A DNA stretch of 64,000 nucleotides from a virus, in IMG/VR virus record IMGVR_UViG_3300029319_008653, positions 29,040 to 93,039 of that record; one strand, written 5' to 3'. A program made the translations under genes and the position numbers. Under the pieces are notes generated by a model that was not told where the DNA came from, ran no database searches, and saw nothing but the letters and a program-made list of their open reading frames with translations. Positions 1-32,362 of this stretch are shown here, piece by piece; the stretch's first letter is position 1; every line of letters begins with the position of its first letter.

Positions 1-2
1 TA

Positions 3-482
3 AAGAAAAGATTAGAAGAGTCTACATTATGGGGTAAGTTTGGAGATAGAGAAGCTTTTACTTTTACGTTTATCAAAAATAATATTCCGGAAGACTTTAA
101 AGCATTTGTAACACAAAAACATAATGTATATCAATTTGTAGCTTTAAAGGTTAAAGAAGGAGGAGCTATCGAAGACCATATAGATGATGATTTTGCTGAA
201 AGCTTTAAAAAATATCAACCAGGTGCTATTGTAGGTTTACCTGAAACAACAGTATATTATGTCGATATTGATAATTCAATGAAAGGTGGTAATTTAATAG
301 TAGAGGGTGAAACTATTAAGCCTACAACCAATAAGGCTGTAATACTTTCACCTGGCTGTTCACATAAGGTATCTAATATGGAAGCTGGTTGCAACCCCCG
401 ACTAACAATTGTATGTGAAAAATATCGTATTTTAAGTAAGTTCTTACCGCATATAAAAACTCCAAATTATAAAAGCGGTTAA
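3..482 (+). CDS. 2OG-Fe(II) oxygenase superfamily protein, 5' partial
   Basis: The reading frame is open to the left edge of the window, so the start lies outside. The visible 159 residues carry a double-stranded beta-helix signature: an HxD pair (His59 and Asp61 of the visible part, in the string HIDDDF), a GGNLIVEG turn, a distal His121 (PGCSHKV) and Arg133, the expected 2-oxoglutarate contact. Enzymes of this fold couple oxidative decarboxylation of 2-oxoglutarate to hydroxylation of proteins, nucleic acids or small molecules; phage T4-likes often encode several. The substrate cannot be told. It precedes the glycan cassette on the same strand, with its own stop 38 bases before the next gene. 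Confidence 0.7.
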   Translation, partial: KKRLEESTLWGKFGDREAFTFTFIKNNIPEDFKAFVTQKHNVYQFVALKVKEGGAIEDHIDDDFAESFKKYQPGAIVGLPETTVYYVDIDNSMKGGNLIVEGETIKPTTNKAVILSPGCSHKVSNMEAGCNPRLTIVCEKYRILSKFLPHIKTPNYKSG

Positions 483-520: not shown

Positions 521-1426
521 ATGAAGATAGCTATAGTTGGCGGATCAGGATTTATCGGAAGACATACAGCCCAAGAATTAAGAGAACATGGGCACGATGT
601 AACTATTTTTGATAAAGTAGAGGGCGTAGATGCATTAGATATGGATAAGCTGTATTATGCATTTAAACGATCTTTACCGTTTGATGCTGTTTATATGTTT
701 GCTGCAATATCGGATAGTAAGGAAAACCTTACTGATATTCAGTATGCAGTTCATACTAACATAATGTGTTTAACTAATACTCTTAAAGTATGTGAGTGTT
801 TTAATATACCAAGAATAATATTTTCATCTACCGTATGGGTTTATAGTGTTTCGCAATCTGAGTATAATACTGAAGAGAATATGCTTCCTATTACTGAATC
901 TGATCATATATATACAACGTGTAAGTTAGCTTGTGAAAGTATAGTAAAAAATTATTGTGCTGTTAGAGATATTGATTATACTATTTTACGATATGGTATT
1001 GCGTATGGTCCAGATTGTCATCCTGATATGATTCTATCAAAATTTATAACTAATGCATTAAATGGTAAAAAGTTAATTATAACTGGTAATGGAGATACTT
1101 TTAGAAATTTTTTATACGTAACCGACCATGCTAGAGGTAATCGATTGGCTTTAGATGATGCAGCCCGAAATCAAATTATTAATCTAGAAGGCCCTGAGAA
1201 GGTAACTTTAAAAGAAGTAGCAGCACGTGTTAAAGAATTACATAGTAAAGATACTACTATTATTTTTACTAGCGAGAGACATGGAGATTATAAGGGTAAG
1301 CATGTAAGTAATTCTAAAGCTAAGTCATTATTAGACTGGGAACCGAAAGTATCATTTAAAGAAGGTTCAAAACAATTATATGAGTATATCAAAAAAAATA
1401 TTAATAGTAGCGCCGCATGCAGATGA
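521..1426 (+). CDS. NAD-dependent epimerase/dehydratase (extended SDR)
   Basis: The 301-residue protein has the Rossmann motif GGSGFIG at residues 7-13, a catalytic Ser near 102-103 (FSSTVWVY) and the YxxxK pair Tyr131/Lys135. That is the layout of nucleotide-sugar 4-epimerases, dehydratases and reductases such as GalE and RmlB relatives. These act on NDP-sugars in the cytoplasm with bound NAD(P). Its last 47 bases overlap the start of the next gene in another frame, and it opens a plus-strand cassette of sugar-modifying genes. Fold and family are clear; the exact sugar substrate is not. Confidence 0.85.
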   Translation: MKIAIVGGSGFIGRHTAQELREHGHDVTIFDKVEGVDALDMDKLYYAFKRSLPFDAVYMFAAISDSKENLTDIQYAVHTNIMCLTNTLKVCECFNIPRIIFSSTVWVYSVSQSEYNTEENMLPITESDHIYTTCKLACESIVKNYCAVRDIDYTILRYGIAYGPDCHPDMILSKFITNALNGKKLIITGNGDTFRNFLYVTDHARGNRLALDDAARNQIINLEGPEKVTLKEVAARVKELHSKDTTIIFTSERHGDYKGKHVSNSKAKSLLDWEPKVSFKEGSKQLYEYIKKNINSSAACR

Positions 1427-2009
1427 TGAAGTTCTTGGAGTAGGTGGTACTACATCTAAAATGCTTTCAGATGGTCATGACGTCCATTTAATTGTATGTT
1501 CAAAAAGATCTAATGATCTTAAAGAATATGAAGAAGCTATGGTACATTATACTAATTTTACTTGGTTAGAATTTAATGATGAAAGGTTAAATTTAGTAAA
1601 AAATCATCTATTAAAAGAAATAGAAAAAATTTATAATAAAGTACAGCCTGATATAGTTTTTATACCTAATAAAGATGATTTTAATTTAGATCATAAAGCT
1701 GTATATGAGGTATGTGAGATAGTATGTCGAAGATATCAAGAGTATCCTCCGGAGATGGTGTTAATGTATGAAGTACCATCATCGACCACTCAGTCTTTTG
1801 ATAACAACTTTAAATGTAATTATTATGTCTCTCTAACAGAAGAAGAAGTACAAAATAAAGCTAATATATTTTTAAAATATACAAATGAAATAAGAGAGTT
1901 TCCTAATCCTAGAAATAGTGAAGGTATTCATTTATATTCACGATTTAGAGGAATGGAATGTAGTGCACAATATGCTGAGGGCTTTAATTTAATATATAGT
2001 AAATTATAA
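1380..2009 (+). CDS. PIG-L/LmbE-family N-acetyl-sugar deacetylase
   Basis: Residues 12-17 (PHADDE) match the zinc-binding AHPDDE signature of the PIG-L family, followed by the glycine-rich VLGVGG and a downstream LDH (Asp104-His105) that supplies another metal-site residue. The length of 209 residues is normal for the family. These enzymes remove N-acetyl groups from GlcNAc-containing substrates such as GlcNAc-PI or GlcNAc-malate. The gene overlaps the upstream epimerase by 47 bases and touches the downstream aminotransferase (TAATG), so the three are probably translated together in one sugar pathway. The specific amino-sugar substrate is inferred only from context. Confidence 0.8.
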   Translation: MSISKKILIVAPHADDEVLGVGGTTSKMLSDGHDVHLIVCSKRSNDLKEYEEAMVHYTNFTWLEFNDERLNLVKNHLLKEIEKIYNKVQPDIVFIPNKDDFNLDHKAVYEVCEIVCRRYQEYPPEMVLMYEVPSSTTQSFDNNFKCNYYVSLTEEEVQNKANIFLKYTNEIREFPNPRNSEGIHLYSRFRGMECSAQYAEGFNLIYSKL

Positions 2010-2647
2010 TGGACACGGTTTGGGATAATGTTGATAAATTTGAGCATCTTATTGCAGATTATGCTGGTAGTAATTATGCAATAGCAGTTGATAGCTGTAC
2101 TAATGCTCTCTTTTTATCGTTAAAATATTGTAAAGATGTCTTAAAGTACAATGATGAGTTTGTTGAAATACCTAAACGTACTTATATTTCCGTACCAATG
2201 CAGGCTATACATGCAGGTTATAAGATAAAATTTTTAGATAAGTCGTGGTCTGGTGCTTATAAATTAGATAGCTTACCTATAGTTGATTCAGCCCAAAGAT
2301 TTTGCAGTCAAATGTATGAAGAAGATACTTTTTATTGTCTGTCATTTAATTATAAAAAAATACTTTCAACTGGTAAAGGAGGTATGATTTTAACTAACGA
2401 TGAATATGCAGCAGAGTGGTTTAAAAGAATGAGGTATGATGGAAGGCCCTCAATATATTATAATGATATGTTAAAAATGCCCGTAAAAGAAGTAGGCTAT
2501 CATATGTATATGACACCTGAACAAGCAGTAACCGGTATACAAAATTTTTATTCTTTAGATAAAAGTAGAGATAGTGATAGTTCTTGTAGTAAAGATTATA
2601 AAGTTGATCTATCTGCCTTAGAATGTTTTAAACATGATATTATTTGA
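2009..2647 (+). CDS. Short DegT/DnrJ/EryC1/StrS-type aminotransferase
   Basis: The N-terminal 180 residues resemble PLP-dependent sugar aminotransferases: SCTNALFLSL at 29-38 and the block SFNYKKILSTGKGGMILT, where Lys117 aligns with the PLP Schiff-base lysine. A motif like the family's EIQAAIG stretch follows (TPEQAVTGIQ). The protein ends at 212 residues, whereas the family is usually about 370, so the C-terminal domain is missing or replaced by a short polar tail. Either it is a compact phage version or a decayed one; the conserved lysine argues against simple decay. In related pathways these enzymes put an amino group on keto-sugars or keto-cyclitols. Confidence 0.7.
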   Translation: MDTVWDNVDKFEHLIADYAGSNYAIAVDSCTNALFLSLKYCKDVLKYNDEFVEIPKRTYISVPMQAIHAGYKIKFLDKSWSGAYKLDSLPIVDSAQRFCSQMYEEDTFYCLSFNYKKILSTGKGGMILTNDEYAAEWFKRMRYDGRPSIYYNDMLKMPVKEVGYHMYMTPEQAVTGIQNFYSLDKSRDSDSSCSKDYKVDLSALECFKHDII

Positions 2648-3599
2648 TACAATAAAATGTTTTACTAATTGTAAGACCTTATCAGCTGAGGCTAAAAATT
2701 ATGATAACTTTATAGATTTAGTAAGTTCAAAATATAAAAAAGAAACTCATAACTTTAAAACATACAGTAAGTTTACTATACGAAAAAATTCAATATTAGT
2801 AAATCAACGACAATATAATAAGCTTGCTGAAAGAGAAAATACCGGTAATTTAGAATGGCCAAATTTATTTGAATATAATGATCAATATAGTATAGTTACA
2901 GACGGTAAGTTTAAATTAAAAAATAAATTAATTTCATACCTATATAATATATCTGACTGTAAACCTCACAGTAAAGAATATACTAATCCGAATATAAGAT
3001 CTCTAGTTTTATATTTTAGAGATGGTAGTTTTGAAGAGTATAGAAATATGGGTAGAGAGTGTTACGGAGTAGATCACTATGAATTTCTAGCAATATATTA
3101 TTTTATAAAAAAATATATAGAAGATGGTAAAAGTAAGTTATTTAGCAATATTTTTATAGTTAGTCAAAATAATAAAATACCAAATTATTTTTATGATATA
3201 TTTCCAGATATTCAAATTAGAGAAGAATGGGCAGATAAGTTTATAATTAATACATCCATATTTGCAAATACAATTCATTTTTGTGGTAATCAATTACCAG
3301 AAAATTTTCTTTATAATATACCTATTGTATGTGAATCGTTTAGACAGCAGTATAAATTTATTAATAAAATAAAAAATAAAATATTTTTACCTTTCTTTTA
3401 TTATACTGGATGGGTAGAAGATGATATACATTATATTGATGATAAAGATTTTAATGAACATGCTATAACATATAAGGAAATATCAAAAAGTAAAACTCTT
3501 AAGAGTGAAAATACTACTGTAGAAAATATATATTTTTATCTTGGTAAAGCAATACAAGAATTAGAAAATAAACTTATAGCGGACGAAATATGCGAATAA
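2634..3599 (+). CDS. Unrecognised protein in glycan cassette, possibly a glycosyltransferase
   Basis: I do not recognise this 321-residue protein with confidence. It overlaps the aminotransferase before it by 14 bases and the reductase after it by 10, so it belongs to the same operon. The stretch SLVLYFRDGSF near residue 122, followed by a region that alternates hydrophobic strands and helices (NIFIVSQNNKIPNYF), loosely recalls the nucleotide-binding half of GT11/GT23-type fucosyltransferases, where a similar HIR-type motif is found. No DxD motif or membrane segment stands out. The glycosyltransferase suggestion is inference from weak pattern and context only. Confidence 0.5.
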   Translation: MILFDTIKCFTNCKTLSAEAKNYDNFIDLVSSKYKKETHNFKTYSKFTIRKNSILVNQRQYNKLAERENTGNLEWPNLFEYNDQYSIVTDGKFKLKNKLISYLYNISDCKPHSKEYTNPNIRSLVLYFRDGSFEEYRNMGRECYGVDHYEFLAIYYFIKKYIEDGKSKLFSNIFIVSQNNKIPNYFYDIFPDIQIREEWADKFIINTSIFANTIHFCGNQLPENFLYNIPIVCESFRQQYKFINKIKNKIFLPFFYYTGWVEDDIHYIDDKDFNEHAITYKEISKSKTLKSENTTVENIYFYLGKAIQELENKLIADEICE

Positions 3600-4423
3600 T
3601 AATTTTAGGTAATGGAAATGCAGGTAAGTTTTTATTTGATTATTTTTCAAATAGATTTGATAGTGTTATAAACTTAACCAGGAAAGATTTTGACGCTGTT
3701 AATATAGATACAAATAAATTTAAAAGTATAATTAAAGAAAATGATGTTGTAATAAACTGTGTTGGTATCTTAAAACCTAATATTAAAAAGGTAGGTGAAT
3801 TTACTACATATAAAATTAATGCTATTTTTCCGAATATAATTTATAATATATGTAAGTTTAACTCAGCGCATTTTATACATATTTGTTCTGATTGTGTTTA
3901 TAAAGGAGATGTAGGAAACTATTCTGAGGAAGTACCTCCTGATGCTACAGATATATATGCTCTTTCTAAAAGTATGGTTAATAGGGGTATAATTTTAAGA
4001 ACATCATTTATTGGCAGTAAAGGTGGTCTAATGAAGTGGGTTTTAGATAATAAAAATAAACAAATTGATGGTTATGAAAACTGTTTATGGAATGGTATTA
4101 CAACCTTAGAACTTGCTAAGCGTATAAAAGAAATAATAGAATATCAAAATTTTTGGACAGGTGTAAGGCATCTCCATAATCCTAAAACTATTAGTAAATA
4201 TGAGCTATGTTGTTTGATTAATAAAATTTATAATTTAAATATATCTATAAGAAACATTAAAGCTACTGAAATAGAAGGTACTAAAATTAATGGAGTATTA
4301 GATAGGTCTCTATCTACTAAATGTAATAATTGGATATCAAATAAAATACCTTGTATAGAGCAGCAAATAAAAGAGTTATATGAATTTGAAAGTAAACAGT
4401 CACAACGAATGGGATCAACTTGA
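3590..4423 (+). CDS. RmlD-like NAD(P)-dependent sugar reductase/epimerase
   Basis: The protein begins with a Rossmann strand and the glycine motif GNGNAG at residues 7-12, has INCVGILKP at 55-63 like the INxAA segment of RmlD-type reductases, and a Tyr123-x3-Lys127 pair (YALSK) after a HICSDCVYKG strand. This is the architecture of dTDP-4-dehydrorhamnose reductases, which reduce keto-deoxysugars made by dehydratases. Length 277 residues is typical. It overlaps the amidinotransferase gene downstream by 44 bases. The substrate is uncertain; a second SDR at the start of the cassette could be its partner. Confidence 0.75.
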   Translation: MRIIILGNGNAGKFLFDYFSNRFDSVINLTRKDFDAVNIDTNKFKSIIKENDVVINCVGILKPNIKKVGEFTTYKINAIFPNIIYNICKFNSAHFIHICSDCVYKGDVGNYSEEVPPDATDIYALSKSMVNRGIILRTSFIGSKGGLMKWVLDNKNKQIDGYENCLWNGITTLELAKRIKEIIEYQNFWTGVRHLHNPKTISKYELCCLINKIYNLNISIRNIKATEIEGTKINGVLDRSLSTKCNNWISNKIPCIEQQIKELYEFESKQSQRMGST

Positions 4424-5486
4424 AGAAGTTATAGTTGGCGACGGTTTTCCTACTACTCTACCTACATTAGATTATTCGTTTAAACTTTTCTTTCATGAAA
4501 ATATTAGAGATGATAATGGAGCGTATCAATATGGTGATGAATTTATTTCTAAAAGACATGTTGAAGAACATAAGGAGGATTTAGAAACATTTGTTAATAC
4601 TCTTAAGAATCTTAATATAATAGTTAAAAGACCTAAAGTACCAAAACGTTTAGAAACCGTTAAAACTCCATGGTTTGAAAGTAATAATCACCCAGCTCTA
4701 AACGTAAGAGATATGGCTATGGTAGTTGGTGATACTATTATTGAATCTCCTCCAACGTGTCGATATCGTTATTTTGAAAATGATTTTTTAAAACATTTAT
4801 TTTTAGAATATTTTAAGCAGGGAGGTAAATGGGTACAGGCACCTAAACCTTTAATGTTAGATAAAAGTTTTGATCTCTCTTGGATAGATGAAACAACGGG
4901 TGAGAGACAAGAATACGAAAAAATCCAAAAATCATCTCATTTTATGGAGTATGGTTTAGAAATTATGTTTGATACTGCAAACTGTATGAGACTTGGCAAG
5001 CATATTCTAATGAATGTAGGTAATAAAAATCAAGAGCTTGGTGCTAAGTGGTTACAGGATACTGTAGGAGATACATATAAAGTTATTACAACAACTATAG
5101 CTGATTCTCACATAGACTCTAGCTTTCTACCTCTAAGACCAGGGCTTGCTATTATTACTAAAGAGTATATAAGAGAAAAACTTCCTAAGGAATTACAAGA
5201 TTGGGATTTAATTTATATACCTATGCGTGAGAGAACTGAAGAAGAATTCTTAAAGCAAGGATTAAGGCTAGCGTCTCCTCGAATAGAATTAAATGTTTTA
5301 TCAATCTCTCCTGAATTAATTATATGTCATTCACAATATGAAAGTGAGTTAAATAAAGTTCTTAAAAAATATAATATAGAAGCTCTCGGTACTCCATTTA
5401 GACATTGTGAAATATTCGGAGGTGCACATCATTGTACTACGTTAGATATTAGAAGAAAAAGTAAACTGGAAAATTATTTTGAATAA
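4380..5486 (+). CDS. Amidinotransferase (glycine/inosamine amidinotransferase family, StrB-like)
   Basis: The protein belongs to the pentein-fold amidinotransferases, which move the amidino group of arginine onto an amine. All three members of the catalytic triad are visible: Asp198 in FDTANCMR, His244 in SHIDSSF and the nucleophile Cys352 in GGAHHCTTLDIRR, each matching the human AGAT blocks in order. The only in-frame ATG before the conserved NEWDQLEEVIVG start is at 4380, hence the overlap with the upstream gene. Family members make guanidinoacetate or, as StrB, guanidino-cyclitols. With a StrS-type aminotransferase, a deacetylase and SDRs alongside, a guanidino-sugar product is the more likely one here, but that is inference. 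Confidence 0.85.
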   Translation: MNLKVNSHNEWDQLEEVIVGDGFPTTLPTLDYSFKLFFHENIRDDNGAYQYGDEFISKRHVEEHKEDLETFVNTLKNLNIIVKRPKVPKRLETVKTPWFESNNHPALNVRDMAMVVGDTIIESPPTCRYRYFENDFLKHLFLEYFKQGGKWVQAPKPLMLDKSFDLSWIDETTGERQEYEKIQKSSHFMEYGLEIMFDTANCMRLGKHILMNVGNKNQELGAKWLQDTVGDTYKVITTTIADSHIDSSFLPLRPGLAIITKEYIREKLPKELQDWDLIYIPMRERTEEEFLKQGLRLASPRIELNVLSISPELIICHSQYESELNKVLKKYNIEALGTPFRHCEIFGGAHHCTTLDIRRKSKLENYFE

Positions 5487-6186
5487 AAACGCTATAACAT
5501 TTACATCCGATAGTAACTATATGAATTATACTATTAATTTATTAAAATCTATTGAAAAGAACTGCAAAGGTATAGAAGTTTATTACAGAGGGGTTAATAT
5601 TACGTCTGAAGAAGAATATGAATTAAATAAATTTGATATTAATTGTTGCAGAGATAAAAGAAATTTATCTACAAAGAGAGATTTAATAAAAAGTAAAGAT
5701 AATCAGTTATTAGTTAATAATAAACCTATTATTAGTCAAATACTCTATAGCGAAGCTATAGCTTATACGTGTCATAGTAGATTCAAAAATATTAGTTATC
5801 TATTAAAAAAAGGATATGATACTATTTTAGCATTAGATGCAGATAGTTATATTAATAAAAATATAGATAATCTTTTTGAAAATTATAAACAATATGACTT
5901 ATGCTCTATACCTGAAGGTAAAGATTTTTTTCGTAACGAGGGCCTACTTTTAATTAATAATAGTAAAAATATAAAAAGATTTTTTAAAGAAGTTGAGCGA
6001 TATCTCTTTAAGCAAGGTCATTTTAAAGAATGGGATAGTGATGGTTATATTATGGAGAAGCTGCAAAAAATATATAAATTAAATCTTGGTGCGTTAGACC
6101 CCCTCTATAAAAGTAAGCCGGATAAAAATGCATATATATGGTCAGGTGATGGGATTATAAAGCATGAAACAAATATTATCAAATAA
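5479..6186 (+). CDS. GT-A-type glycosyltransferase, first of three in tandem
   Basis: The gene uses a TTG start that overlaps the stop of the amidinotransferase gene. The 235-residue protein has the metal-binding DxD motif of GT-A glycosyltransferases in ILALDADSYINKNIDNLF (about residues 114-131) and ends with YIWSGDGIIKH, a loop shared with the next protein (YIWAGSGFNK). It is therefore a diverged paralogue of its downstream neighbour, which it overlaps by 23 bases. No signal peptide or membrane segment is seen, so it should act in the cytoplasm on a nucleotide-sugar donor. Donor and acceptor are unknown. Confidence 0.7.
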   Translation: MNKNAITFTSDSNYMNYTINLLKSIEKNCKGIEVYYRGVNITSEEEYELNKFDINCCRDKRNLSTKRDLIKSKDNQLLVNNKPIISQILYSEAIAYTCHSRFKNISYLLKKGYDTILALDADSYINKNIDNLFENYKQYDLCSIPEGKDFFRNEGLLLINNSKNIKRFFKEVERYLFKQGHFKEWDSDGYIMEKLQKIYKLNLGALDPLYKSKPDKNAYIWSGDGIIKHETNIIK

Positions 6187-7012
6187 AGAATTTATTTTTA
6201 CCTGTACAGCAGATAAAAACTATATTGATTTTATATATAGTTTATCAAGCAGTATAAATGCTAACTGTCCCGATATACCCCTACATATACGTTTAGTAAA
6301 TATTCATGAAAATGATAAACAAATAATATCTGCCGTTATTAAAGAAAGAAATAAAAATTCAATAATTGAATTTGATGATAAAATATTATCTAATAATAGA
6401 AAGTATTTTAGAAGTAAGGATGAACTTCTCTATGGTAAATCTATTAATGACTCATTAAAGATTAAAAGAAGTAGTAAAACATTTAAGAATGTAAATAATA
6501 ATTATTTTTTAATGAGTGAGCAGCAGTGCTATACATCGAATACAAGATTTAGAAATATTATTAAACTTTTAGAAGATGGCTATAATTACGTAATATATCT
6601 TGATGCAGATACTATTGTACGAAAAAATATTTACGATTTGAAAGATATTCTTATATCATATGATCTTACATGCAATATAAATGATTGTAAGAGATATTCA
6701 AATAATAAGTGTTGGGAGTTAAGCTTTTTAGGAGTAAAAAAATCTAATCGCTCTATTCACTTTATAAATCAATGTAAAAAATTAGCTGAAAATGATATGC
6801 TTGATTGGGATTCAGATCAAAACTCCATTGAAGAAATCTATTCTAATAATTTTAAAGATCTTACAGTTAATAGTAATATAAAATATATAGAGGATATAGG
6901 TCAGCTACATAATAAAGAGCATTTAACAGACAGCTATATATGGGCAGGAAGTGGTTTTAATAAAATAAACAATGATAAGTTTATAAATGAGTTAGAAAAA
7001 TATTATGAATAA
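6164..7012 (+). CDS. GT-A-type glycosyltransferase, second of three in tandem
   Basis: The 282-residue protein resembles the preceding one along its length: an N-terminal FTCTADKNYIDF strand, YVIYLDADTIVRKNI with the DxD metal motif near residues 147-149, DWDSDQNSIEEI, and a C-terminal YIWAGSGFNK. The similarity implies a tandem duplication followed by strong divergence. It overlaps genes on both sides (23 and 8 bases). The fold suggests transfer of a sugar from a nucleotide donor; the linkage is not predictable from sequence alone. Confidence 0.7.
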   Translation: MKQILSNKEFIFTCTADKNYIDFIYSLSSSINANCPDIPLHIRLVNIHENDKQIISAVIKERNKNSIIEFDDKILSNNRKYFRSKDELLYGKSINDSLKIKRSSKTFKNVNNNYFLMSEQQCYTSNTRFRNIIKLLEDGYNYVIYLDADTIVRKNIYDLKDILISYDLTCNINDCKRYSNNKCWELSFLGVKKSNRSIHFINQCKKLAENDMLDWDSDQNSIEEIYSNNFKDLTVNSNIKYIEDIGQLHNKEHLTDSYIWAGSGFNKINNDKFINELEKYYE

Positions 7013-7706
7013 TATTAATATATGTTATACAATTAATAATAATAAAAAATATATAGACCTAACTTTAGAATCTATATCTTCTATTAAAAAATTCTTTCGT
7101 TCTAAAAAGTATAGGTTAAATTTTTTTATTATAAGTGAAGATAAATTAAATGTACCTGATTATATTACTAATATTATATCACCTTATAAAGATATACCTC
7201 TTATGCATCAAAGAATTTATATATCTGAATTATTAAATGTAGATAGAGTTATTTTTCTTGATAGTGATACATATATAACTACCTGTTTATCTAAATTATG
7301 GGAAATAGATATGCAAGATAAAATTATTGGTATGTCTCCTCACTATCATATTAATACAATCAATGAATGTATAGAGTTGTTTGACATTAGAAATGAAGTA
7401 AAGGAGTATTCATTTTTATTTAAAGAGCAATATTTTAATGCAGGTGTAGTATTACTAGATTGTAAGAAGTGGATTAAAAATGATCTAACTAATATTTGTA
7501 AAGATTTTTTAAATATTATAAAAGATACAAAGCATTATAAAAATGAAGAGTTTACTTATAATATAGCTTTAAGAAATCATATACATGTGTTAGATGAGTT
7601 ATGGAATTATTTTCCTCGTTCTGATTTTAAACGTCCTAAAATTTTACATTATTATGGAATATATAACAAGGATAAACCTAAGCATAACGAAGTATATAGT
7701 GGTTAA
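7005..7706 (+). CDS. GT8-like glycosyltransferase, third of three in tandem
   Basis: Of the three tandem enzymes this one looks most like family GT8 (galactosyl/glucosyltransferases of LPS type): RIYISELLNVDRVIFLDSDT with the DxD metal motif, followed by YFNAGVVLLDCKKW, the typical FNAGVLLID block, and a C-terminal KILHYYG that recalls the KPW/HY donor-site motif. Length 233 residues is short but covers the catalytic domain. It closes the first glycan cassette, after which a late promoter starts the next gene. Cytoplasmic; donor probably UDP-hexose by family analogy. Confidence 0.75.
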   Translation: MNNINICYTINNNKKYIDLTLESISSIKKFFRSKKYRLNFFIISEDKLNVPDYITNIISPYKDIPLMHQRIYISELLNVDRVIFLDSDTYITTCLSKLWEIDMQDKIIGMSPHYHINTINECIELFDIRNEVKEYSFLFKEQYFNAGVVLLDCKKWIKNDLTNICKDFLNIIKDTKHYKNEEFTYNIALRNHIHVLDELWNYFPRSDFKRPKILHYYGIYNKDKPKHNEVYSG

Positions 7707-8888: not shown

Positions 8889-8904
8889 ATTATATTCTAG
8901 TTCC
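8889..8904 (-). promoter_or_regulatory. GGAACT-N4-TATAAT promoter element
   Basis: On the minus strand GGAACT (8904-8899), four bases, then TATAAT (8894-8889), then 6 nt to the ATG at 8882. The same 16-base arrangement occurs before the genes at 14108, 32363 and 61936. Confidence 0.55.
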
Positions 8905-9953
8905 TATCGTAAGCCAGTAGATTCAAATACATCTCTCGCTACACCAGCAGAAAAGCCTCCTTCTATACCTTTAACAATAACAGATATAGCATTATGACTA
9001 TGAAGACTTTCATTATGAGAAGCTACAATTTTAAAGTCTTTAATACGAGACTCACTATTAAGTTTTTCATATAGTAACCTTACAGCATCTTCTACAAACT
9101 TAAGAAATGCACCGTTCTTTTCAGCAAAAGCTTGCTCATCTTCTCTCTTAACCATAACTTGAGTTTCAGTCTGCAAAGCAGCTAAGCATAGTTCTTGAAT
9201 ATCTTCAATCCATAACATATCGTCAAACTTAACACTAACACGAGCTACACTTCTTTGACTATGAGGTACAGTAGCGCGATTACGATACTTTTCAGCATGC
9301 TCACTTAACTCAAAACTACAAGGACAAGCAGAAGAGTAAACAAAGTCAAAATGAATATATTTCTTAAACTCACCATCTTTAGTAAGATCACCTTCGAATA
9401 CAACATCATAATATTGATAGCCTTCTAAACCACTACGTAAACTTTTTTGCTTGATAGGATATGAAATCTTAAGCATTATACGAGAATCAAATACTTTAAG
9501 ATTTTCTTTATAAGTTTCTAATACATCTTTAATTTTATCAATACTAAATATCTCATCTTTATGATCATAAAAGCTTCTCATAATACGAGACATATTAATA
9601 CCTTTCTTATGAGCTTCTAATGATACACTACCAGTTACACTAGTTTCTAATTCAATAGTTTTACCATCTCTCTTTTTATAATTAAGAGGTAATCTAAAAT
9701 TATGTATACCAACTTGCTGAATAGGTACAGCTGCACCTTGAATTAAACTAGAAGGACCATTTTGAAGATCGGGTAGAGAAGATATATATTTTTTATCGGC
9801 ATTAACATTATCATCATAAACTCTTATAGGAGGAAAATAGCCTTTAGCAAACTCTTCTCCCATAATTTCCTTAGCAATAACATCTTTTTCACCAGTTAGT
9901 TCATCATCTTCACCTAACCACTCATAACCAGTATCTGAAACTTTTTTACTCAT
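8904..9953 (-). CDS. folE2: GTP cyclohydrolase FolE2 (type IB)
   Basis: The protein matches the COG1469 (FolE2/MptA) cyclohydrolases, which open GTP to 7,8-dihydroneopterin triphosphate, the first step towards folate and 7-deazaguanines. Diagnostic segments are VGIHNFRLPL near residue 80, YSSACPCSFELSEHAE with the metal-binding Cys, VPHSQRSVARV, and HNESLHSHNAISVI near the C-terminus. Length 349 residues is somewhat above the bacterial average because of an acidic N-terminal extension. Since QueD, QueE, QueF and a DpdA-like transglycosylase are encoded in the same window, its role is probably deazaguanine supply for DNA modification rather than folate. It has its own TATAAT element 6 nt before the ATG. 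Confidence 0.9.
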   Translation of the reverse strand: MSKKVSDTGYEWLGEDDELTGEKDVIAKEIMGEEFAKGYFPPIRVYDDNVNADKKYISSLPDLQNGPSSLIQGAAVPIQQVGIHNFRLPLNYKKRDGKTIELETSVTGSVSLEAHKKGINMSRIMRSFYDHKDEIFSIDKIKDVLETYKENLKVFDSRIMLKISYPIKQKSLRSGLEGYQYYDVVFEGDLTKDGEFKKYIHFDFVYSSACPCSFELSEHAEKYRNRATVPHSQRSVARVSVKFDDMLWIEDIQELCLAALQTETQVMVKREDEQAFAEKNGAFLKFVEDAVRLLYEKLNSESRIKDFKIVASHNESLHSHNAISVIVKGIEGGFSAGVARDVFESTGLR

Positions 9954-12360: not shown

Positions 12361-13068
12361 ATGAGTTATTTTAAATCAACAAAAATTATTCCTATGGGGT
12401 CTACTGCGTTTCGTCAATGGAGAGCTGGTAGTCATTGTAAATTTATTCATGGTTATCGCTTACAGACTAAGCTTTGGTTTGGTTTAAATAAAGGCGCTAC
12501 GCTTGATGATAAAAATTGGGTCTTTGATTTCGGTGGTTGTAAAGAGATCAAAAAGCTTTTAGAAGATCAATTTGATCATACGTTTTGTGCAGCAGCTGAT
12601 GATCCTGAATTAGAAACTTTTCAACAACTAGATGCTTCCGGTCTAATTCAATTAAGAGTTATGGATGGTGTTGGTATTGAGAAGACTGCTGAATGGGTAT
12701 ATCAAGCTGTTAGTAAGTATGTTAAAGAATCTACTAATGGTAGAGTTAAGATTGATAAGGTAGAAGTTTGGGAACATGAAGGCAATAGTGCTATCTATGA
12801 TACTCGACTTAATACTTTAAATAATACAGATTCTAGTTATGTAGATCATAGAATCTTTAATAAAGATAAGGCACATGAAAAGGCTTTAGAAGAGGATAAG
12901 CGAAGAGAATGCTTATGCAAAGAAGAGTCAGTTGAAGAAAAACCACCAGTGGAAGTAAAGCAAAGCAATCCTACTCCACAAGGACCGGTACCTGCACCTT
13001 CAACATCACAAAATGTTACTAAAGGTGGAATGAGTAACCCATTTGCAGGTACATCATGGGGTGATTAA
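12361..13068 (+). CDS. queD: 6-carboxy-tetrahydropterin synthase-like QueD with C-terminal extension
   Basis: The first 155 residues match the 6-pyruvoyl-tetrahydropterin synthase/QueD family, which converts dihydroneopterin triphosphate to 6-carboxy-tetrahydropterin on the way to preQ0. The blocks STAFRQWRAGSHCKFIHGY (catalytic Cys, zinc His), WVFDFGG, FDHTFCAAADDPE and VEVWEHEGNSAIY appear in order. The usual HGH zinc pair reads HGY, as in the 'FRQWRA' subfamily. A tail of about 80 residues, charged then Pro-rich and ending NPFAGTSWGD, is not part of the enzyme. The downstream small gene follows directly. Confidence 0.85.
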   Translation: MSYFKSTKIIPMGSTAFRQWRAGSHCKFIHGYRLQTKLWFGLNKGATLDDKNWVFDFGGCKEIKKLLEDQFDHTFCAAADDPELETFQQLDASGLIQLRVMDGVGIEKTAEWVYQAVSKYVKESTNGRVKIDKVEVWEHEGNSAIYDTRLNTLNNTDSSYVDHRIFNKDKAHEKALEEDKRRECLCKEESVEEKPPVEVKQSNPTPQGPVPAPSTSQNVTKGGMSNPFAGTSWGD

Positions 13069-14107: not shown

Positions 14108-14851
14108 ATGGGATTAGATACGTTAAGTTTAAGTGATGATAAAGTGTTTTATACTCTAGAAGGAGAAGGTCTGCATATTGGTCAACCTTCTGTTTTTATG
14201 AGATTAGCAATGTGTAATTTAACCTGTAAAGGTTTTGCATCTGAAGATTCTCCGCATGGTTGCGATTCATTCGTATCATGGTCAGTAAAGAATAAATTTA
14301 CTTATGAAGATTTAAATTGGTACTTCGAAGATAATGGATTCGATGAAGAATTAAAGAAAGGTGCTATATTAAAAATAACTGGCGGTGAACCTATGCTGCA
14401 ACAACGTAGACTATTAGAATGGTTACCTACTTTTGAAGAATGGTTTAAGTTTAAGCCTCGTATAGATTTTGAAAGTAATTCAAGTATTATGCCTAAAGAA
14501 GAATGGATTACTGATTGGAATGCTACTTTTACTCTATCTCCTAAGATGAGTAATAATGGAGATCCTGAAGCTCGTAGATATAAGCCCGAAGTATTAAAAT
14601 GGCATAATAGTCATAAAGAAAGTTGTTTTAAGTTTGTTATTAATGAACCTAGTGATCTAATAGAACTAACGCAAAAATATATTGACCCGGGTTATGTTGA
14701 TAGAGATAAAATTTGGTTAATGCCTTGTTGTGGTTCAAGAGAAGAACATACAGAAAAATCTGCTATGGTAGCTGATTTGTGTAAAAGATATCATTTTAAA
14801 TTTAGTCCTAGATTGCAGTTAGTTATTTGGGACATGGCACTAAAAGTATAA
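14108..14851 (+). CDS. queE: 7-carboxy-7-deazaguanine synthase QueE (radical SAM), atypical cysteine motif
   Basis: QueE rearranges 6-carboxy-tetrahydropterin to 7-carboxy-7-deazaguanine using SAM and a [4Fe-4S] cluster. The start YTLEGEGLHIGQPSVFMRL is the typical QueE substrate and cluster approach, and ILKITGGEP the SAM-binding GGEP. The cluster cysteines are Cys36, Cys40 and Cys52, giving CX3CX11C instead of CX3CX2C; spaced variants are known in some QueE clades. Two further Cys (PCCGS) lie near residue 201. The gene leads an operon with polyamine genes, only 1 base from speD. Confidence 0.85.
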   Translation: MGLDTLSLSDDKVFYTLEGEGLHIGQPSVFMRLAMCNLTCKGFASEDSPHGCDSFVSWSVKNKFTYEDLNWYFEDNGFDEELKKGAILKITGGEPMLQQRRLLEWLPTFEEWFKFKPRIDFESNSSIMPKEEWITDWNATFTLSPKMSNNGDPEARRYKPEVLKWHNSHKESCFKFVINEPSDLIELTQKYIDPGYVDRDKIWLMPCCGSREEHTEKSAMVADLCKRYHFKFSPRLQLVIWDMALKV

Positions 14852-14852: not shown

Positions 14853-15200
14853 ATGAGGTATCTAGCTAATCACCAGTTAATTGAATTATATGATTGCGAT
14901 CAAGATCTGCTAGAAAATGATACGTACGTAAAAAAAACATTTAAAGAAGCGGCTAAATTAGCTAATGCTACTGTTGTAAGCGAAAAGTTTCATAACTTTA
15001 GCCCTTATGGTTTAACGGGTGTTTTAGTAATTACTGAAAGCCATATTAGTATACATACATGGCCAGAGCATAAATATGTTGCAGTAGATGTATTTAGTTG
15101 CGACGATAAAGTAGATCATAAAAAGATATTAAATCATTTAAAAGTAAATTTATTTAGCACTAGAACAAAATCCAAATCAGTAAAAAGAGGAAAAGTATGA
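14853..15200 (+). CDS. speD: S-adenosylmethionine decarboxylase SpeD (canonical)
   Basis: The 115-residue proenzyme carries the complete signature ESHISIHTWPEHKYVAVDVFSC. Glu62-Ser63 is the autocleavage site that yields the pyruvoyl cofactor on Ser63, His68 the processing base and Cys83 the proton donor; the numbering equals that of the Thermotoga enzyme. It decarboxylates SAM to the aminopropyl donor for spermidine synthase, whose gene lies two places downstream. It overlaps its diverged paralogue by 4 bases (ATGA). Confidence 0.92.
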   Translation: MRYLANHQLIELYDCDQDLLENDTYVKKTFKEAAKLANATVVSEKFHNFSPYGLTGVLVITESHISIHTWPEHKYVAVDVFSCDDKVDHKKILNHLKVNLFSTRTKSKSVKRGKV

Positions 15201-15577
15201 CAGAAGAAGAATTTAATAAAGATGAATTATGGGGCATGTCTTTGTCACTAGATCTTTATGATTGTAATCCCGATACAATTAGGGATGCAGATAAAATTAA
15301 AGAGTATGTAAAAGAGCTTTGTGATAATGTTATTGATATGAAAAGATATGGAGAGTGTCAAGTAGTTCACTTTGGTGATGATCCGAAAGTTACAGGATTT
15401 TCTATGACTCAACTAATTGAAACTTCTTTAGTATCAGGCCATTTTGCTAATAATACTAATGCTGCATATCTTGATATTTTTTCATGCAAATGGTATGATG
15501 TACGTAAAGTAAAACAATTTAGCAAAAGATTTTTTGAAGCAGATGTATGTATAACAAACGTAAGCGAACGTCAATGA
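15197..15577 (+). CDS. Diverged SpeD paralogue, possible pyruvoyl-dependent amino acid decarboxylase
   Basis: The 126-residue protein aligns with its upstream neighbour without gaps over the active site: Ser77 (pyruvoyl position), His82 (+5) and Cys97 (+20) keep exact spacing in TSLVSGHFANNTNAAYLDIF plus SC. Two things differ. The residue before the serine is Thr76 rather than Glu, and the SAM-pocket HTWPE becomes HFANN. So the self-processing machinery seems retained while substrate recognition has changed. SpeD homologues that became arginine or ornithine decarboxylases are known; an inactive regulatory partner of SpeD (prozyme) is the alternative. The start has a good Shine-Dalgarno (AGAGGAAAAGT). 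Confidence 0.7.
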   Translation: MTEEEFNKDELWGMSLSLDLYDCNPDTIRDADKIKEYVKELCDNVIDMKRYGECQVVHFGDDPKVTGFSMTQLIETSLVSGHFANNTNAAYLDIFSCKWYDVRKVKQFSKRFFEADVCITNVSERQ

Positions 15578-16389
15578 TAGATGATAGTTGGGATAAAAAG
15601 AATGGTAGTTCTATCCATATAGAAGGAAATTTAATAGAACTATTTAACTCTAAATATCAACGCATAGAAGTTTATAATACTAAACGTTTTGGTAAACTAT
15701 TAAAGCTTGATGGAGTAATTCAATTAACTGAATTTGATGAAGCTAACTATCATGAGATGATAGCGCATGTACCTTTAAACATTCATAATACCCCTGATAA
15801 TGTATTAGTTATAGGTGGTGGCGACGGAGGAGCTATACGTGAGATTCTTAAGCATAAACATGTTAAAACTATTGATCTCGTTGAAATAGATAACTTTGTA
15901 ATAGATATATCAAAAAAGCATTTTCCGTACGTATCACAAGGATTAGATGATAGTAAAGTTACTATTATAAATGAAGATGGTGCAGAATATATTAAGAAAT
16001 GTAAAGATTTATATGATGTAATTATTATAGATTCTACTGATCCATTTAGTGTAGGAGAATCTTTATTTAAAGAAGAGTTTTATAAAAATCTTAAAGTTGC
16101 ATTAAAACCTAAGGGTATTGTAGTATCGCAATCTGAAAGTATGTTCTACAATAAGGATCTTATTAAGGATATGTACCTATTTAAACGTAAACATTTTAAT
16201 GCTGTGAGATATTATTATACTTTAGTACCTACATATCCTTCCGGTACTATAGGGTTTCATTTTTGTTCTGATGGTAATTATTTACCTATAGATATAAATG
16301 ATGATTTTAATAGAATCCCAGATCTAAAATATTACAACGAAATGATACATAAGAGTAGTTTTTTAACACCTAACGGGGTAAATACTTAA
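15574..16389 (+). CDS. speE: Spermidine synthase (aminopropyltransferase)
   Basis: The protein shows the SpeE blocks in order: YQRIEVYNTKRFGKLLKLDG, the binding-site LTEFDEANYHEMIAHVPL, the nucleotide loop VIGGGDGGAIRE, LVEIDNFVID, and DVIIIDSTDPF with the catalytic Asp. It transfers the aminopropyl group from decarboxylated SAM to putrescine or a related diamine. An in-frame ATG at 15547 would add 9 residues, but the ATG at 15574 makes the classic ATGA overlap with speD2 and starts MIDDSW, so I chose it. It completes the polyamine operon. Confidence 0.9.
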   Translation: MIDDSWDKKNGSSIHIEGNLIELFNSKYQRIEVYNTKRFGKLLKLDGVIQLTEFDEANYHEMIAHVPLNIHNTPDNVLVIGGGDGGAIREILKHKHVKTIDLVEIDNFVIDISKKHFPYVSQGLDDSKVTIINEDGAEYIKKCKDLYDVIIIDSTDPFSVGESLFKEEFYKNLKVALKPKGIVVSQSESMFYNKDLIKDMYLFKRKHFNAVRYYYTLVPTYPSGTIGFHFCSDGNYLPIDINDDFNRIPDLKYYNEMIHKSSFLTPNGVNT

Positions 16390-22485: not shown

Positions 22486-23271
22486 ATGTCAAAGATTGGT
22501 ATAGGAATAATAACATGTAATCGAACAGATTTTTTACAAACTTGTATCGATAGTATAAACAAAGATTGGTATGATGAGTTTGTTATAGTTAATGACGGTG
22601 AAATGCCCGTTAAAAATAATAGTTTTAACATTATAAATAACCCTAAAAATTTAGGTGTTTGTAAATCAAAAAATATAGCACTAAAATATTTGCTAGATAA
22701 TAGCTGCGATCATATCTTTCTAGTAGAAGATGATATGAAGTTTACCGGGAATATATTTAAAGAATATATAGAAGCGAGTAAAACTACAGGTATACAGCAT
22801 TTTATGTTTGGTTATCACGGACCTGCAAATAAAGGTGGTATAAGTGGAGGTAAACCTCAACCAAGAAAAATTATTGATTATGGTAAAATAAAAATAGCAC
22901 TAAACCAACACTGCGTGGGAGCAGTTTGCTACTATACTCGAAAATCTTTAGAGGATACTGGAATTTTTGACGAACAGTTTGATAAAAATAATTTTGAACA
23001 TGTAGAGCATTCATATAGATTAGCTAAGGACGGTTATAGTACACCTTATTGGTGGTGGGCAGATATAGCTAATAGTTTAGACTTTGTACAAGAGCAAGCC
23101 TGTAGTGAAGATAACTCAGCTATCAGAAGAGGAGATGATTGGCAACAGAGTATAATTGATAGTGCGTATATCTTTAAATCAAAACACGGGGTAATGCCTG
23201 CTTGGAATGACTGCGTACCAGATACTTCAGTTAAAGATGTTGTTGAAATATTAAGGAAGTTTAAGAAATGA
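22486..23271 (+). CDS. Family-2-like glycosyltransferase
   Basis: GT2 features are clear: IGIGIITCNRTDFLQTCIDS at the N-terminus, EFVIVNDGE, and HIFLVEDDMKF near residue 80 with the acidic metal motif. A later HVEHSYRLAKDGYSTPYWWW supplies the acceptor side. The 261-residue protein is soluble. It is the first of about ten successive glycan genes on the plus strand (22.5-30.5 kb), most overlapping by 4 bases, so they form one translational unit. Donor unknown. Confidence 0.75.
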   Translation: MSKIGIGIITCNRTDFLQTCIDSINKDWYDEFVIVNDGEMPVKNNSFNIINNPKNLGVCKSKNIALKYLLDNSCDHIFLVEDDMKFTGNIFKEYIEASKTTGIQHFMFGYHGPANKGGISGGKPQPRKIIDYGKIKIALNQHCVGAVCYYTRKSLEDTGIFDEQFDKNNFEHVEHSYRLAKDGYSTPYWWWADIANSLDFVQEQACSEDNSAIRRGDDWQQSIIDSAYIFKSKHGVMPAWNDCVPDTSVKDVVEILRKFKK

Positions 23272-24002
23272 AAATATCTCTATTATGTCCCAGTCGAGAA
23301 AGACTTAATAAATTTTTAACTTTTACTAGTAGTATTTTTTGTACAGCTAACAATATTAAAAATATAGAGATAGTTTTAGGTGTAGATGAAGATGATCCTA
23401 AATTTAACGAATATAAAAGAATAGCTAAAAATCTTTCTTTTATCAAATTTACAACATTTAAGAAAGGCTTCTTCAAAAATGAAGGACTTTCCGGACTTTG
23501 GAATATTATGGCTCAAGTATGTAACGGCGATATAGTTGCAATGGTAGGTGATGATATGATCTTTCAAACTAATGACTGGGATAAAGAAATTATTGATACT
23601 TTTGAATCCAAAAAAGATCCAATATGGCTTATACACTGTAATGATGGCATGAGAGGACCTGGTAATAAATATGCGAATGTAGCTCCTATGGCTGTAAACT
23701 CATTTGTGCACCGTGCTTATATTAATGCAGTAGGTAGATATGTGCAGACAGAAGAACCAGCCATATTTCAAGATACATTCTTAGATAGACTTTTTGGTAG
23801 TTTAAATCGAAAAATTTATTTTCATAATATCATGATAAAACATCTACACTTTTCTGAGGGCGGTACGAAAGACAAAACTTCAGAAGCTTTAGAAGCTACC
23901 AGGGTAGGTATATGGGATAATGAAAACCTGTTTAAAGAAAAATTATTACCGGTAATGCAAAAAGAAATTAAAATTCTTAAAGACCTATATAAAATTAAAT
24001 GA
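23268..24002 (+). CDS. GT-A-like glycosyltransferase
   Basis: The protein starts MKISLLCPSRERLNKFLTF, typical for phage GT2 relatives ('CPSRxR'), has GVDEDDPKF and MVGDDMIFQTNDWD as the acidic donor/metal motif, and ends in a helical tail. Length 244 residues. It has a Shine-Dalgarno (AAGGAAG) and a 4-base overlap with the preceding gene. A His-rich segment (IMIKHLHFSEGG) near residue 190 may complete the metal site. Specificity is unknown. Confidence 0.7.
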   Translation: MKISLLCPSRERLNKFLTFTSSIFCTANNIKNIEIVLGVDEDDPKFNEYKRIAKNLSFIKFTTFKKGFFKNEGLSGLWNIMAQVCNGDIVAMVGDDMIFQTNDWDKEIIDTFESKKDPIWLIHCNDGMRGPGNKYANVAPMAVNSFVHRAYINAVGRYVQTEEPAIFQDTFLDRLFGSLNRKIYFHNIMIKHLHFSEGGTKDKTSEALEATRVGIWDNENLFKEKLLPVMQKEIKILKDLYKIK

Positions 24003-24652
24003 TAATATATACACATTATAGCAATTCGCACGAAGATTTATATAAAAATTATTTTAAAGATTCTTTACGTAAAATATATACTAAAGATGAAGTTAAAATA
24101 AGAGCTGCAAAGCATCGTCAAACAACTAAAGATGGTACCTTTATGGAGCAAGGTTGGTTAGATAGTATGGACTTTAAGCTACAAGTTATCTTAAAAGCTA
24201 TAGAAGAAAACTGGAACGACTATTTTATTTTTGCAGATACTGATATTGTTTTTTACAAGGAGTTTATAGATGACCTATTAATAGAAATAAAAGGATTTGA
24301 TATTGCTTGTCAAAATGATTGTGAATCTTTATGTGCTGGGTTTTTTATTGCCAGGGGAAACGAAAGAGTAAAAAATTTATTTCTTAAAATAAGAGAAAAT
24401 TATCGTAATATGGTAAACGACCAAGTTGCTTTAAATAGGTTTAAAAATATTATAAACTATAAACTATTAGATAAAGAAGAATATTATACTATTGGAAACT
24501 TTTTTGATAATGTTAACGGTACGCATATATGGGACGGGGTAACTAAAATAAAACCTCCTCGGGATATGAGAATACATCATGCTAATTATGTAGAAGGTGT
24601 AGGTCAAAAGAAAAAAATTATAGAAATGATTAGATCAGAATATAACAAATGA
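23999..24652 (+). CDS. Nucleotide-diphospho-sugar transferase-like protein
   Basis: The 217-residue protein holds a DxD motif in DYFIFADTDIVFYKEF (about residues 78-82), then CQNDCESLCAGFFIARGN, which corresponds to the FNAG-type block of small GT-A enzymes (GT77/GT8-like), and a C-terminal RIHHANYVEGVGQKKK. ATGA overlap with both neighbours. No membrane anchor. Its role in the locus is transfer of one sugar; the linkage cannot be inferred. Confidence 0.65.
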   Translation: MIIYTHYSNSHEDLYKNYFKDSLRKIYTKDEVKIRAAKHRQTTKDGTFMEQGWLDSMDFKLQVILKAIEENWNDYFIFADTDIVFYKEFIDDLLIEIKGFDIACQNDCESLCAGFFIARGNERVKNLFLKIRENYRNMVNDQVALNRFKNIINYKLLDKEEYYTIGNFFDNVNGTHIWDGVTKIKPPRDMRIHHANYVEGVGQKKKIIEMIRSEYNK

Positions 24653-25488
24653 TAAGTTTTTTCGAAGATATATTTCAATATGAAAGTTTTCCTACAGAGT
24701 ATGAATGTTATAAAGTACTTTCTGATATAGATAACTATATAGCAGTACCATGGACTCAAATTTTAAATAGTCATTGGTTTAACTTTCCAGGTAATAAAGG
24801 TAGAGATTATTTTTTAAGAGAAATTAGTAAGTATAAAGTAAAAACGGAAAATAATTTTACTATATGTCAGCATGATAGTTTTAAACAACTAGAACTATAT
24901 TTTAAACATCTTAATATAACTAAAGTATTTTGTACGCTTCATAGTAAACAAGATAAAATAGATGGTGTAGATCTTATACCTATTTCATTTGCTTTTAATA
25001 AAGAATTTAGTAATGATAAAAAGAAAGATATTTTAGTATCATTTGTAGGCGCATCTACTACACACCCTCTTCGTGAAACTGTAAAAAAATCATTTACCGG
25101 TCCTAATTTTATATATAGAGATAGCTACCATATTGATAGTAGAGATCAAGATAAAGAAGAACTAGAACTGCAGTATAAGAATATTATGGAAAGATCAATT
25201 TTTACCTTATGTCCGAGAGGCTCATCACCTTCATCTGTAAGATTTTGGGAAAGTTTATCTGCAGGTACTATTCCAGTATTAATAAGCGACGACTGGGCCT
25301 TACCTGAATGGGATTGGGACAATACAATAGTAAAAATACCTGAGAAAGATATTGCTAATCTCACAACTATGAAATTAAATGTTTTATTAGAGCCGTTAAA
25401 TCATAAAAAAATGAAAGAAAAATGTCTCGAGGCATATAATAAATTTAAAAAACAAAACTTTAGAGAGTACGTTTTACAAAGCTTGTAA
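24649..25488 (+). CDS. Exostosin-family (GT47-like) glycosyltransferase
   Basis: The C-terminal half carries the exostosin core: RSIFTLCPRGSSPSSVRFWE, SLSAGTIPVLISDDWALPEW. In GT47 enzymes this part binds the UDP-sugar (the RG..S..RFWE..GCIPVI pattern). The N-terminal half (VPWTQILNSHWFNFPGNKGRD, FTICQHDS) is the usual acceptor-side Rossmann-like domain, here short (279 residues total). A second exostosin-like gene lies at 29677. Eukaryotic exostosins polymerise heparan; bacterial and phage versions are of unknown specificity. Confidence 0.8.
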   Translation: MISFFEDIFQYESFPTEYECYKVLSDIDNYIAVPWTQILNSHWFNFPGNKGRDYFLREISKYKVKTENNFTICQHDSFKQLELYFKHLNITKVFCTLHSKQDKIDGVDLIPISFAFNKEFSNDKKKDILVSFVGASTTHPLRETVKKSFTGPNFIYRDSYHIDSRDQDKEELELQYKNIMERSIFTLCPRGSSPSSVRFWESLSAGTIPVLISDDWALPEWDWDNTIVKIPEKDIANLTTMKLNVLLEPLNHKKMKEKCLEAYNKFKKQNFREYVLQSL

Positions 25489-25515
25489 TTAAATTTTATT
25501 GCAGTAAGTAATATT

Positions 25516-28683: not shown

Positions 28684-28692
28684 CTTATATAG

Positions 28693-28698
28693 TATAAA
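28693..28698 (+). promoter_or_regulatory. TATAAA element before the GDP-sugar dehydratase gene
   Basis: Within ATATAGTATAAAATAAGTT, TATAAA ends 7 nt before the ATG at 28706, in one of the few gaps of the glycan operon. Confidence 0.4.
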
Positions 28699-28705
28699 AT
28701 AAGTT

Positions 28706-32305: not shown

Positions 32306-32311
32306 ATATAT

Positions 32312-32317: not shown

Positions 32318-32339
32318 GTATATAAATTGGAAATTTCAA

Positions 32340-32355: not shown

Positions 32356-32362
32356 ATAGAAA

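Follow-up and report, generated by a model that had tools for sequence, protein, structure and literature searches.

Within a 64,000-nucleotide stretch of viral DNA (the window; bases 29,040-93,039 of the 93-kb IMG/VR virus record IMGVR_UViG_3300029319_008653), we found a conserved five-gene cassette that we think probably encodes a phage pathway for making a nucleoside diphosphate (NDP)-linked amino sugar, guanidinylating it from arginine and transferring it to a surface glycan or virion protein. The five genes encode two short-chain dehydrogenase/reductases (SDR1 and SDR2), a PIG-L-type de-N-acetylase, a half-size DegT/StrS-family aminotransferase and an amidinotransferase, and we base this reading on the identities of the genes, their intact active sites, the fold predicted for the aminotransferase, signs of purifying selection and a linkage that persists across contigs. 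The phage has a T4 gp23-type major head protein that, among the matches listed, is at most ~35% identical to those of isolated cyanophages; by sequence the phage is therefore a deep-branching relative of marine T4-like phages. A broader proposition is that T4-like marine phages not yet cultured make guanidino sugars by a pathway of their own, centered on a miniature DegT aminotransferase and a distinct phage lineage of amidinotransferases, and place these positively charged sugars on their virions or on the surface of the host; we regard this as a real possibility and advance it tentatively.

Nine forward genes, overlapping or abutting and all with open reading frames (ORFs), span positions 521-7706 of the window in the order SDR1, PIG-L, aminotransferase, a 321-amino-acid ORF, RmlD-like SDR2, amidinotransferase and three GT8-family glycosyltransferases (Table 1). 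A first-pass annotation of this DNA had described overlapping genes for a StrS-type aminotransferase, PIG-L, an amidinotransferase and two SDRs, followed by three glycosyltransferases, and the open frames and family matches bear this out. The interval it gave, 1380-5486, does hold such genes but starts too late, as the set begins with SDR1 and the entire run (about 24,700-36,745 in G000 coordinates) begins ~4 kb ahead of the window; the 321-amino-acid ORF that interrupts the overlapping set had also gone unmentioned.

Searching by tblastn with the window genes, we found all five genes together in at least 15 other IMG/VR contigs, with identities to the window genes ranging from 77% down to 32%, and partial sets in others (Table 1). 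Greedy ORF calling had missed PIG-L in L009, L010 and L013, where tblastn finds it. The closest relatives (the window/L005 type) keep the gene order of the window, while the order is rearranged in L103 and in L013, L188, L189, L192 and L193, and SDR1 lies on the opposite strand in L187, so the linkage outlasts rearrangement. Genes intervening between the five come and go. Two of the contigs, L009 and L010, have aminotransferases that are 99% identical and amidinotransferases that are only 83% identical, suggesting single-gene exchange within the cassette.

The five-gene neighborhood is not due to chance. Each of the five gene families retains its catalytic residues, and the genes are under purifying selection (dN/dS ~0.03-0.33 in the pairs computed). 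The half-size aminotransferase occurs near the amidinotransferases of three phage lineages in 16 of 17, 10 of 11 and 5 of 34 loci, counts of mixed ascertainment that pool loci located by way of either gene. It lies within 8 kb in 17 of 43 loci of an amidinotransferase-only set, is nearby for all 11 nonredundant amidinotransferases of the cassette clade, and in L138, L145 and L151 its gene overlaps or adjoins that of the amidinotransferase. Among 50,697 annotated phage records, 13 match the amidinotransferase and seven the half-size aminotransferase; one, Synechococcus phage S-SCSM2R, has both (chance expectation 0.002), and none has the whole five-gene set. These data bear on the idea that the genes are stuffer or decaying cargo, taken up with a host glycan locus and functionless in the phage, to which we give very little credence. 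The large, variable lipopolysaccharide (LPS) clusters of T4-like cyanophages were once suggested as possible stuffer DNA (PMC3037559), but here the active sites are intact, dN/dS is low, co-occurrence is conserved across rearrangements, the miniature aminotransferase is phage-specific, and frequent frameshifts were not seen in the relatives.

The aminotransferase is of the StrS family, as first annotated, scoring 80.2 bits against PF01041 (cut-off 19.8; DegT/DnrJ/EryC1/StrS), but it is not an ordinary StrS. Full-length members have about 360-400 residues with a C-terminal small domain; this protein has 212, aligns only to positions 24-92 and ~163-260 of the 360 in PF01041, and is without ~45 large-domain residues and most of the C-terminal domain. 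A broken or truncated gene is ruled out by the conserved length of ~195-215 residues in dozens of phages, and since 48 of 48 aligned relatives are similarly short, the half-size aminotransferase constitutes a family. The Schiff-base Lys117, aligned to the lysine of the perosamine-synthase motif NKIITTGEGG, and the pyridine-binding Asp93 are invariant in 48 phage sequences. AlphaFold performed poorly with nine sequences (pLDDT 54), while 48 sequences yielded a model with pLDDT 95.3 and pTM 0.92 that Foldseek matched to GDP-perosamine synthase (1.4e-11) and that superimposed on 7b0d with a VIA Z of 20.9 (rmsd 2.6, 199 residues). The predicted fold is that of an NDP-sugar aminotransferase core with the pyridoxal phosphate (PLP) residues kept.

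The best NCBIfam match of the half-size aminotransferase is LegC, and in L128, L134 and L135 it lies beside NeuB, where a LegC/PseC-type aminotransferase is expected; L128 and L134 also have CMP-sugar synthetase- and UDP-GlcNAc 2-epimerase-type genes next to it. The stretch of L128 that was read has no other DegT gene, and L134 has a full-length DegT gene as well. In Flavobacterium phage immuto, the half-size gene lies just 5′ of a gene annotated as a pilin glycosylation protein. The NeuB-type neighbors, the LegC match and the immuto neighbor together support a role in sugar transamination. If it works as an enzyme, it would be the smallest of the DegT/StrS type known to us. A family member also occurs with halogenase-like and SGNH-like phage genes in L076, a contig binned in a Chloroflexi metagenome-assembled genome (MAG) that looks viral.

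The amidinotransferase matched no Pfam or NCBIfam entry, neither database having a fitting model, but its matches in the PDB were StrB1 (1bwd, 6e-53), SxtG (6e-49), HsvA (1.5e-44) and AGAT (1e-39). Its D198, H244, C352, D111 and D246 align to AGAT D254, H303, C407, D170 and D305 and are invariant across a 14-row alignment of diverse phage enzymes, and Ser299, the equivalent of AGAT Ser355, is kept too. These residues place the protein firmly in the AGAT (pentein) superfamily, with its catalytic set complete, and it is probably active, in agreement with the triad (Asp198, His244, Cys352) and the working enzyme proposed in the first-pass annotation. Its StrB-type assignment was not supported. 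In two trees the cassette amidinotransferases formed a clade of phage enzymes, separate from the AGAT/HsvA/SxtG clade (26 rows, support 100/100, in the first tree; 16 rows, SH-aLRT 100, in the second) and from that of StrB1 (48 rows, 99/90, in the first tree; the second recovered a separate phage lineage). Both exclusions are well supported by the sequence trees, and the tight clustering with glycine amidinotransferases that the annotation had named beforehand as the contrary outcome was not seen. Deep placement of the clade is uncertain because of long branches; closest to it from outside are phage L195, Campylobacter phage CP220, L124 and a single protein from Rhizobium. The nearest bacterial enzyme, from Rhizobium lemnae (L023, 41% identical), has an adjoining DegT-like aminotransferase gene and PIG-L within 6 kb, but we rejected this locus as the cassette donor, as only the aminotransferase, amidinotransferase and PIG-L types are present there and the 41% identical protein sits on a long branch.

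Phage amidinotransferases are frequent, with at least 570 related candidate loci in a scan of IMG/VR. Those at L194-L261 neighbor radical-SAM, B12-radical-SAM, 2-oxoglutarate (2OG)-oxygenase and carbamoyltransferase genes and are largely undescribed; one cassette (L188:6887-9113) has two different amidinotransferase genes in tandem, and L096, binned in a Puniceispirillum MAG, looks viral, its amidinotransferase being almost identical to the one encoded by viral contig L213.

At the positions of AGAT Met302, Phe405 and Trp408 the cassette enzyme has Ser, His and Thr, so its acceptor is probably not glycine. This argues against AGAT-like production of guanidinoacetate, one form of a proposal in which the amidinotransferase acts independently of the sugar genes, the other being HsvA-like synthesis of amidino-polyamines. 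HsvA is indeed homologous to the enzyme, and positions 14853-16389 of the window hold a tandem of two S-adenosylmethionine decarboxylase (SpeD-like) genes and a spermidine synthase gene. However, just one of the 11 cassette-bearing records has a spermidine synthase, the trees exclude the enzyme from the clade that holds AGAT and HsvA, and the half-size aminotransferase accompanies every nonredundant member of the cassette clade, making either form very unlikely.

The remaining cassette proteins likewise retain their catalytic residues. SDR1, whose best PDB matches are UDP-Glc 4-epimerase 4zrm and epimerase 6zl6, has Ser103-Thr104, Tyr131 and Lys135 conserved across 18 alignment rows; the Thr-Asp-Glu motif of NDP-sugar 4,6-dehydratases is not found in it, SST-VW-VY replacing ST-DE-VY, and among the 18 rows only the distant L195 has the Glu. 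By sequence, the catalytic residues of SDR1 are of the epimerase type and the dehydratase pair is missing. Tyr123 and Lys127 of SDR2 are invariant in 17 rows. The PIG-L motif HADDE, of the HxDDE form found in PIG-L/LmbE proteins, is kept in 19 rows, with H13, D15, D16 and E17 invariant and D104-H105 present in all rows covering them. The 321-amino-acid ORF gave no match in Pfam, PHROG or NCBIfam searches; weak relatives occur in L006, L009, L010, L012, L186 and L189, near radical-SAM or glycosyltransferase genes in several contigs, and no relative was found at the matching position in other cassettes.

Taken as a pathway, we infer that SDR1 and/or SDR2 would oxidize a hydroxyl of a host-made NDP-sugar, likely UDP-GlcNAc given the presence of a PIG-L de-N-acetylase, and that the half-size PLP aminotransferase would convert the resulting ketone to an amine. 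PIG-L would deacetylate an amino group of that sugar or of the glycan, exposing another amine, the amidinotransferase could then shift the amidino group of arginine to one or other amine by way of an amidino intermediate on Cys352, and the GT8 enzymes may attach the cationic sugar to a host-surface glycan or virion protein. We favor surface decoration because of the many variable glycosyltransferases and the neighboring tail-fiber gene in L013, where the cluster comes after that gene. The pairing of aminotransferase with amidinotransferase proposed in the first-pass annotation is thus supported within a glycan setting, while the cyclitol product it also offered is not: 11 cassette-bearing records, which may be incomplete, had no match to DHQ_synthase (the DHQ/DOI-synthase family) and none to Gfo/Idh above the cut-off (one sub-cut-off match, in G004). 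The host could supply a cyclitol-forming or inositol-oxidizing enzyme. If phages do make a guanidino-sugar glycan, it would be a new surface chemistry affecting host range and phage competition, and the sugars could serve in receptor masking, superinfection exclusion or altered adsorption.

Several observations weigh against the guanidino-sugar pathway. The cassette has no sugar 4,6-dehydratase, so the source of the ketone is only inferred. In full-length enzymes a small domain contributes to substrate binding; the half-size aminotransferase has no such domain, and it frequently occurs in phages that lack an amidinotransferase. Fifteen large contigs with the aminotransferase and no amidinotransferase nearby had none anywhere, so the aminotransferase has other uses too. 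L104-L108 keep PIG-L, the aminotransferase and SDR2 (L108 ends before SDR2) without the amidinotransferase or SDR1, neither of which turned up in the rest of those contigs that were checked (43.8 kb and 23 kb). Glycosyltransferases near the cassette differ between contigs. Lastly, the position of AGAT Arg322, a residue that we take to bind the carboxylate of arginine, is Tyr or Asp in the cassette clade (Y263 here, aligned in a variable loop), so arginine as the amidino donor is not certain.

The genes upstream of SDR1 (G000 24,702-29,521) encode a class I/II aminotransferase, two radical-SAM/SPASM proteins, two glycosyltransferase-like proteins and, directly preceding SDR1, a small ORF of 178 amino acids that we read as a 2OG-type oxygenase, a Pfam search with it giving no match. 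With such enzymes the cluster might yield not a surface glycan but a small diffusible or peptide-linked product, that is, an aminoglycoside-like or peptide-sugar metabolite or a peptide decoration. The closeness of the radical-SAM/SPASM and class I/II aminotransferase genes fits this, other phage amidinotransferases adjoin carbamoyltransferase, halogenase-like, B12-radical-SAM and 2OG-oxygenase genes, and a related cyanophage cluster has been predicted to make a halogenated amino-acid/sugar metabolite (jumbo-phage review, PMC7824862). We nevertheless consider such a product unlikely, as GT8 and other glycosyltransferase genes are many around the set and vary between phages, which is typical of surface-glycan loci, and L011 has the five genes with two glycosyltransferase genes and the small 2OG-like ORF and no adjoining radical-SAM gene.

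The phage also carries FolE2, a QueD-like PTPS, a probable QueE and QueC, the genes of preQ0 synthesis, and it probably makes preQ0 for 7-deazaguanine DNA; a TGT-family (PF01702) transglycosylase was not found in the phage record. An amino or guanidino sugar, or an amidino group, might then be placed on modified bases of the phage genome. QueC and PTPS occur in 5 of 10 cassette-bearing records, Campylobacter phage CP220, which has an amidinotransferase, has QueC, and phage glycosyltransferases able to hypermodify DNA are mentioned in the literature (Pyle 2024, as cited in PMC12619734). This reading is highly improbable all the same: a thymidylate-synthase-family hydroxymethylase candidate was not found in 9 of 10 cassette-bearing records, QueC and PTPS are both missing from G003 and G009 (cassette records of 107 and 121 kb, whose contigs may be incomplete), QueC was not found in nearly all other amidinotransferase-bearing phages tested, and the SDRs, aminotransferase and PIG-L indicate sugar chemistry. 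We rejected a general link of the cassette to 7-deazaguanine DNA modification, the distribution of QueC and PTPS not being general. Direct evidence thus counts against the DNA-modification, polyamine or glycine, and functionless-cargo explanations.

Elsewhere in the window, a putative ATP-dependent zinc protease-like ORF (PF05618; 7939-8355) lies just 3′ of the gene run and is kept in many relatives, and a second glycan gene block (22486-32305) encodes an NDP-sugar SDR, a PfkB-family kinase, a cytidylyltransferase-like protein, a cupin and additional ORFs resembling glycosyltransferases.

Table 1. Features of the gene run, preQ0 genes and contigs with cassette genes. Positions are those of the window unless marked.
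Feature	Position or contigs	Strand	Basis or remark
178-amino-acid ORF	G000 28,985-29,521; 3′ part at 1-482	+	begins before the window, just upstream of SDR1; same place in several relatives
SDR1, extended SDR, epimerase family (GalE / UDP-GlcA 4-epimerase-like)	521-1426	+	PF01370 3.6e-40
PIG-L-type de-N-acetylase	1380-2009	+	PF02585 1.5e-16; PDB matches diacetylchitobiose deacetylase and LmbE-type
Half-size DegT/StrS-family sugar aminotransferase, 212 amino acids	2009-2647	+	PF01041 2.2e-22
ORF of 321 amino acids, without known family	2634-3599	+	splits cassette between aminotransferase and SDR2
SDR2, RmlD-like reductase-type SDR	3590-4423	+	PF04321 7.4e-11; 2ggs dTDP-4-dehydrorhamnose reductase 2.8e-13
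AGAT-superfamily L-arginine:amine amidinotransferase (putative)	4380-5486	+	1bwd 6.4e-53; residue mapping; trees
GT8-family glycosyltransferase a	5479-6186	+	PF01501 1e-6; relative directly 3′ of amidinotransferase in most same-order cassettes
GT8-family glycosyltransferase b	6164-7012	+	PF01501 1.5e-6
GT8-family glycosyltransferase c	7005-7706	+	PF01501 1.2e-23
FolE2	8904-9953	-	
QueD-like PTPS	12361-13068		
QueE-like ORF	14108-14851		QueE-like by eye; weak Fer4_12 Pfam match
QueC	L003:199-996	-	
Complete five-gene sets	L005, L006, L009, L010, L011, L012, L013, L014, L103, L119, L187, L188, L189, L192, L193		
Partial sets	L186, L190, L195		L186 without SDR2; L190 cut by contig end; L195 without SDR2, amidinotransferase 33% identical

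We rate the cassette as belonging with phage-borne surface-glycan or metabolite gene clusters, which are themselves known. Phage amidinotransferases beside radical-SAM and glycosyltransferase genes were already known from CP220 and CPt10 (PMC2853527) and from S-SCSM2R; what seems not to have been described before is the conserved cassette and the half-size form of the aminotransferase. A search of open-licence papers, in which absence is weak evidence, found no published description of either, and a literature search on guanidino sugars in phages found nothing. In the papers found, phage amidinotransferases figure solely under the name ‘glycine amidinotransferase’ or as entries in lists of metabolic genes, such as the published list of viral metabolic genes that includes K00613 (PMC8226683), and the conserved cassette gives these enzymes a testable role. 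In the Campylobacter phages CP220 and CPt10 (Firehammervirus), described in 2010, the amidinotransferase gene sits, in each phage, with five radical-SAM genes in a module that is interchangeable (PMC2853527). Like our phage they are T4-like, with a homologous amidinotransferase (31% identical for CP220, whose enzyme is of the same amidinotransferase lineage, SH-aLRT 99) in a radical-SAM/glycosyltransferase cluster; unlike it, their annotated region has no half-size aminotransferase, PIG-L or SDR pair, and the gene was annotated only as a possible glycine amidinotransferase, with no pathway put forward (PMC2853527). S-SCSM2R (PQ898602) has the half-size aminotransferase (annotated as 3-amino-5-hydroxybenzoic acid synthase) and an amidinotransferase (annotated as inosamine amidinotransferase) within 3 kb, among glycosyltransferases, 2OG oxygenases and radical SAM, but its amidinotransferase is of another lineage (28% identity) and no PIG-L or RmlD-like SDR is annotated nearby. 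The LPS or surface-polysaccharide clusters of cyanophages P-SSM2 and S-SSM7 similarly combine epimerases or dehydratases with many glycosyltransferases in a variable block, but their descriptions mention neither an amidinotransferase nor a half-size aminotransferase (PMC3037559, PMC7824862), and the words amidino- and aminotransferase were not found in the text of PMC7824862. The phage NeuB-type clusters of L128, L134 and L135 use the same aminotransferase family in a glycan pathway; they have no amidinotransferase, and their product would be a nonulosonic acid. Finally, although the phage amidinotransferase falls outside the StrB1 clade, the aminotransferase is half-size and no cyclitol-forming or inositol-oxidizing gene was found in the cassette-bearing records searched, the proposed chemistry parallels the streptidine branch of streptomycin biosynthesis, in which a StrS/StsC-type aminotransferase and then an AGAT-superfamily amidinotransferase, StrB1, act on a ring.

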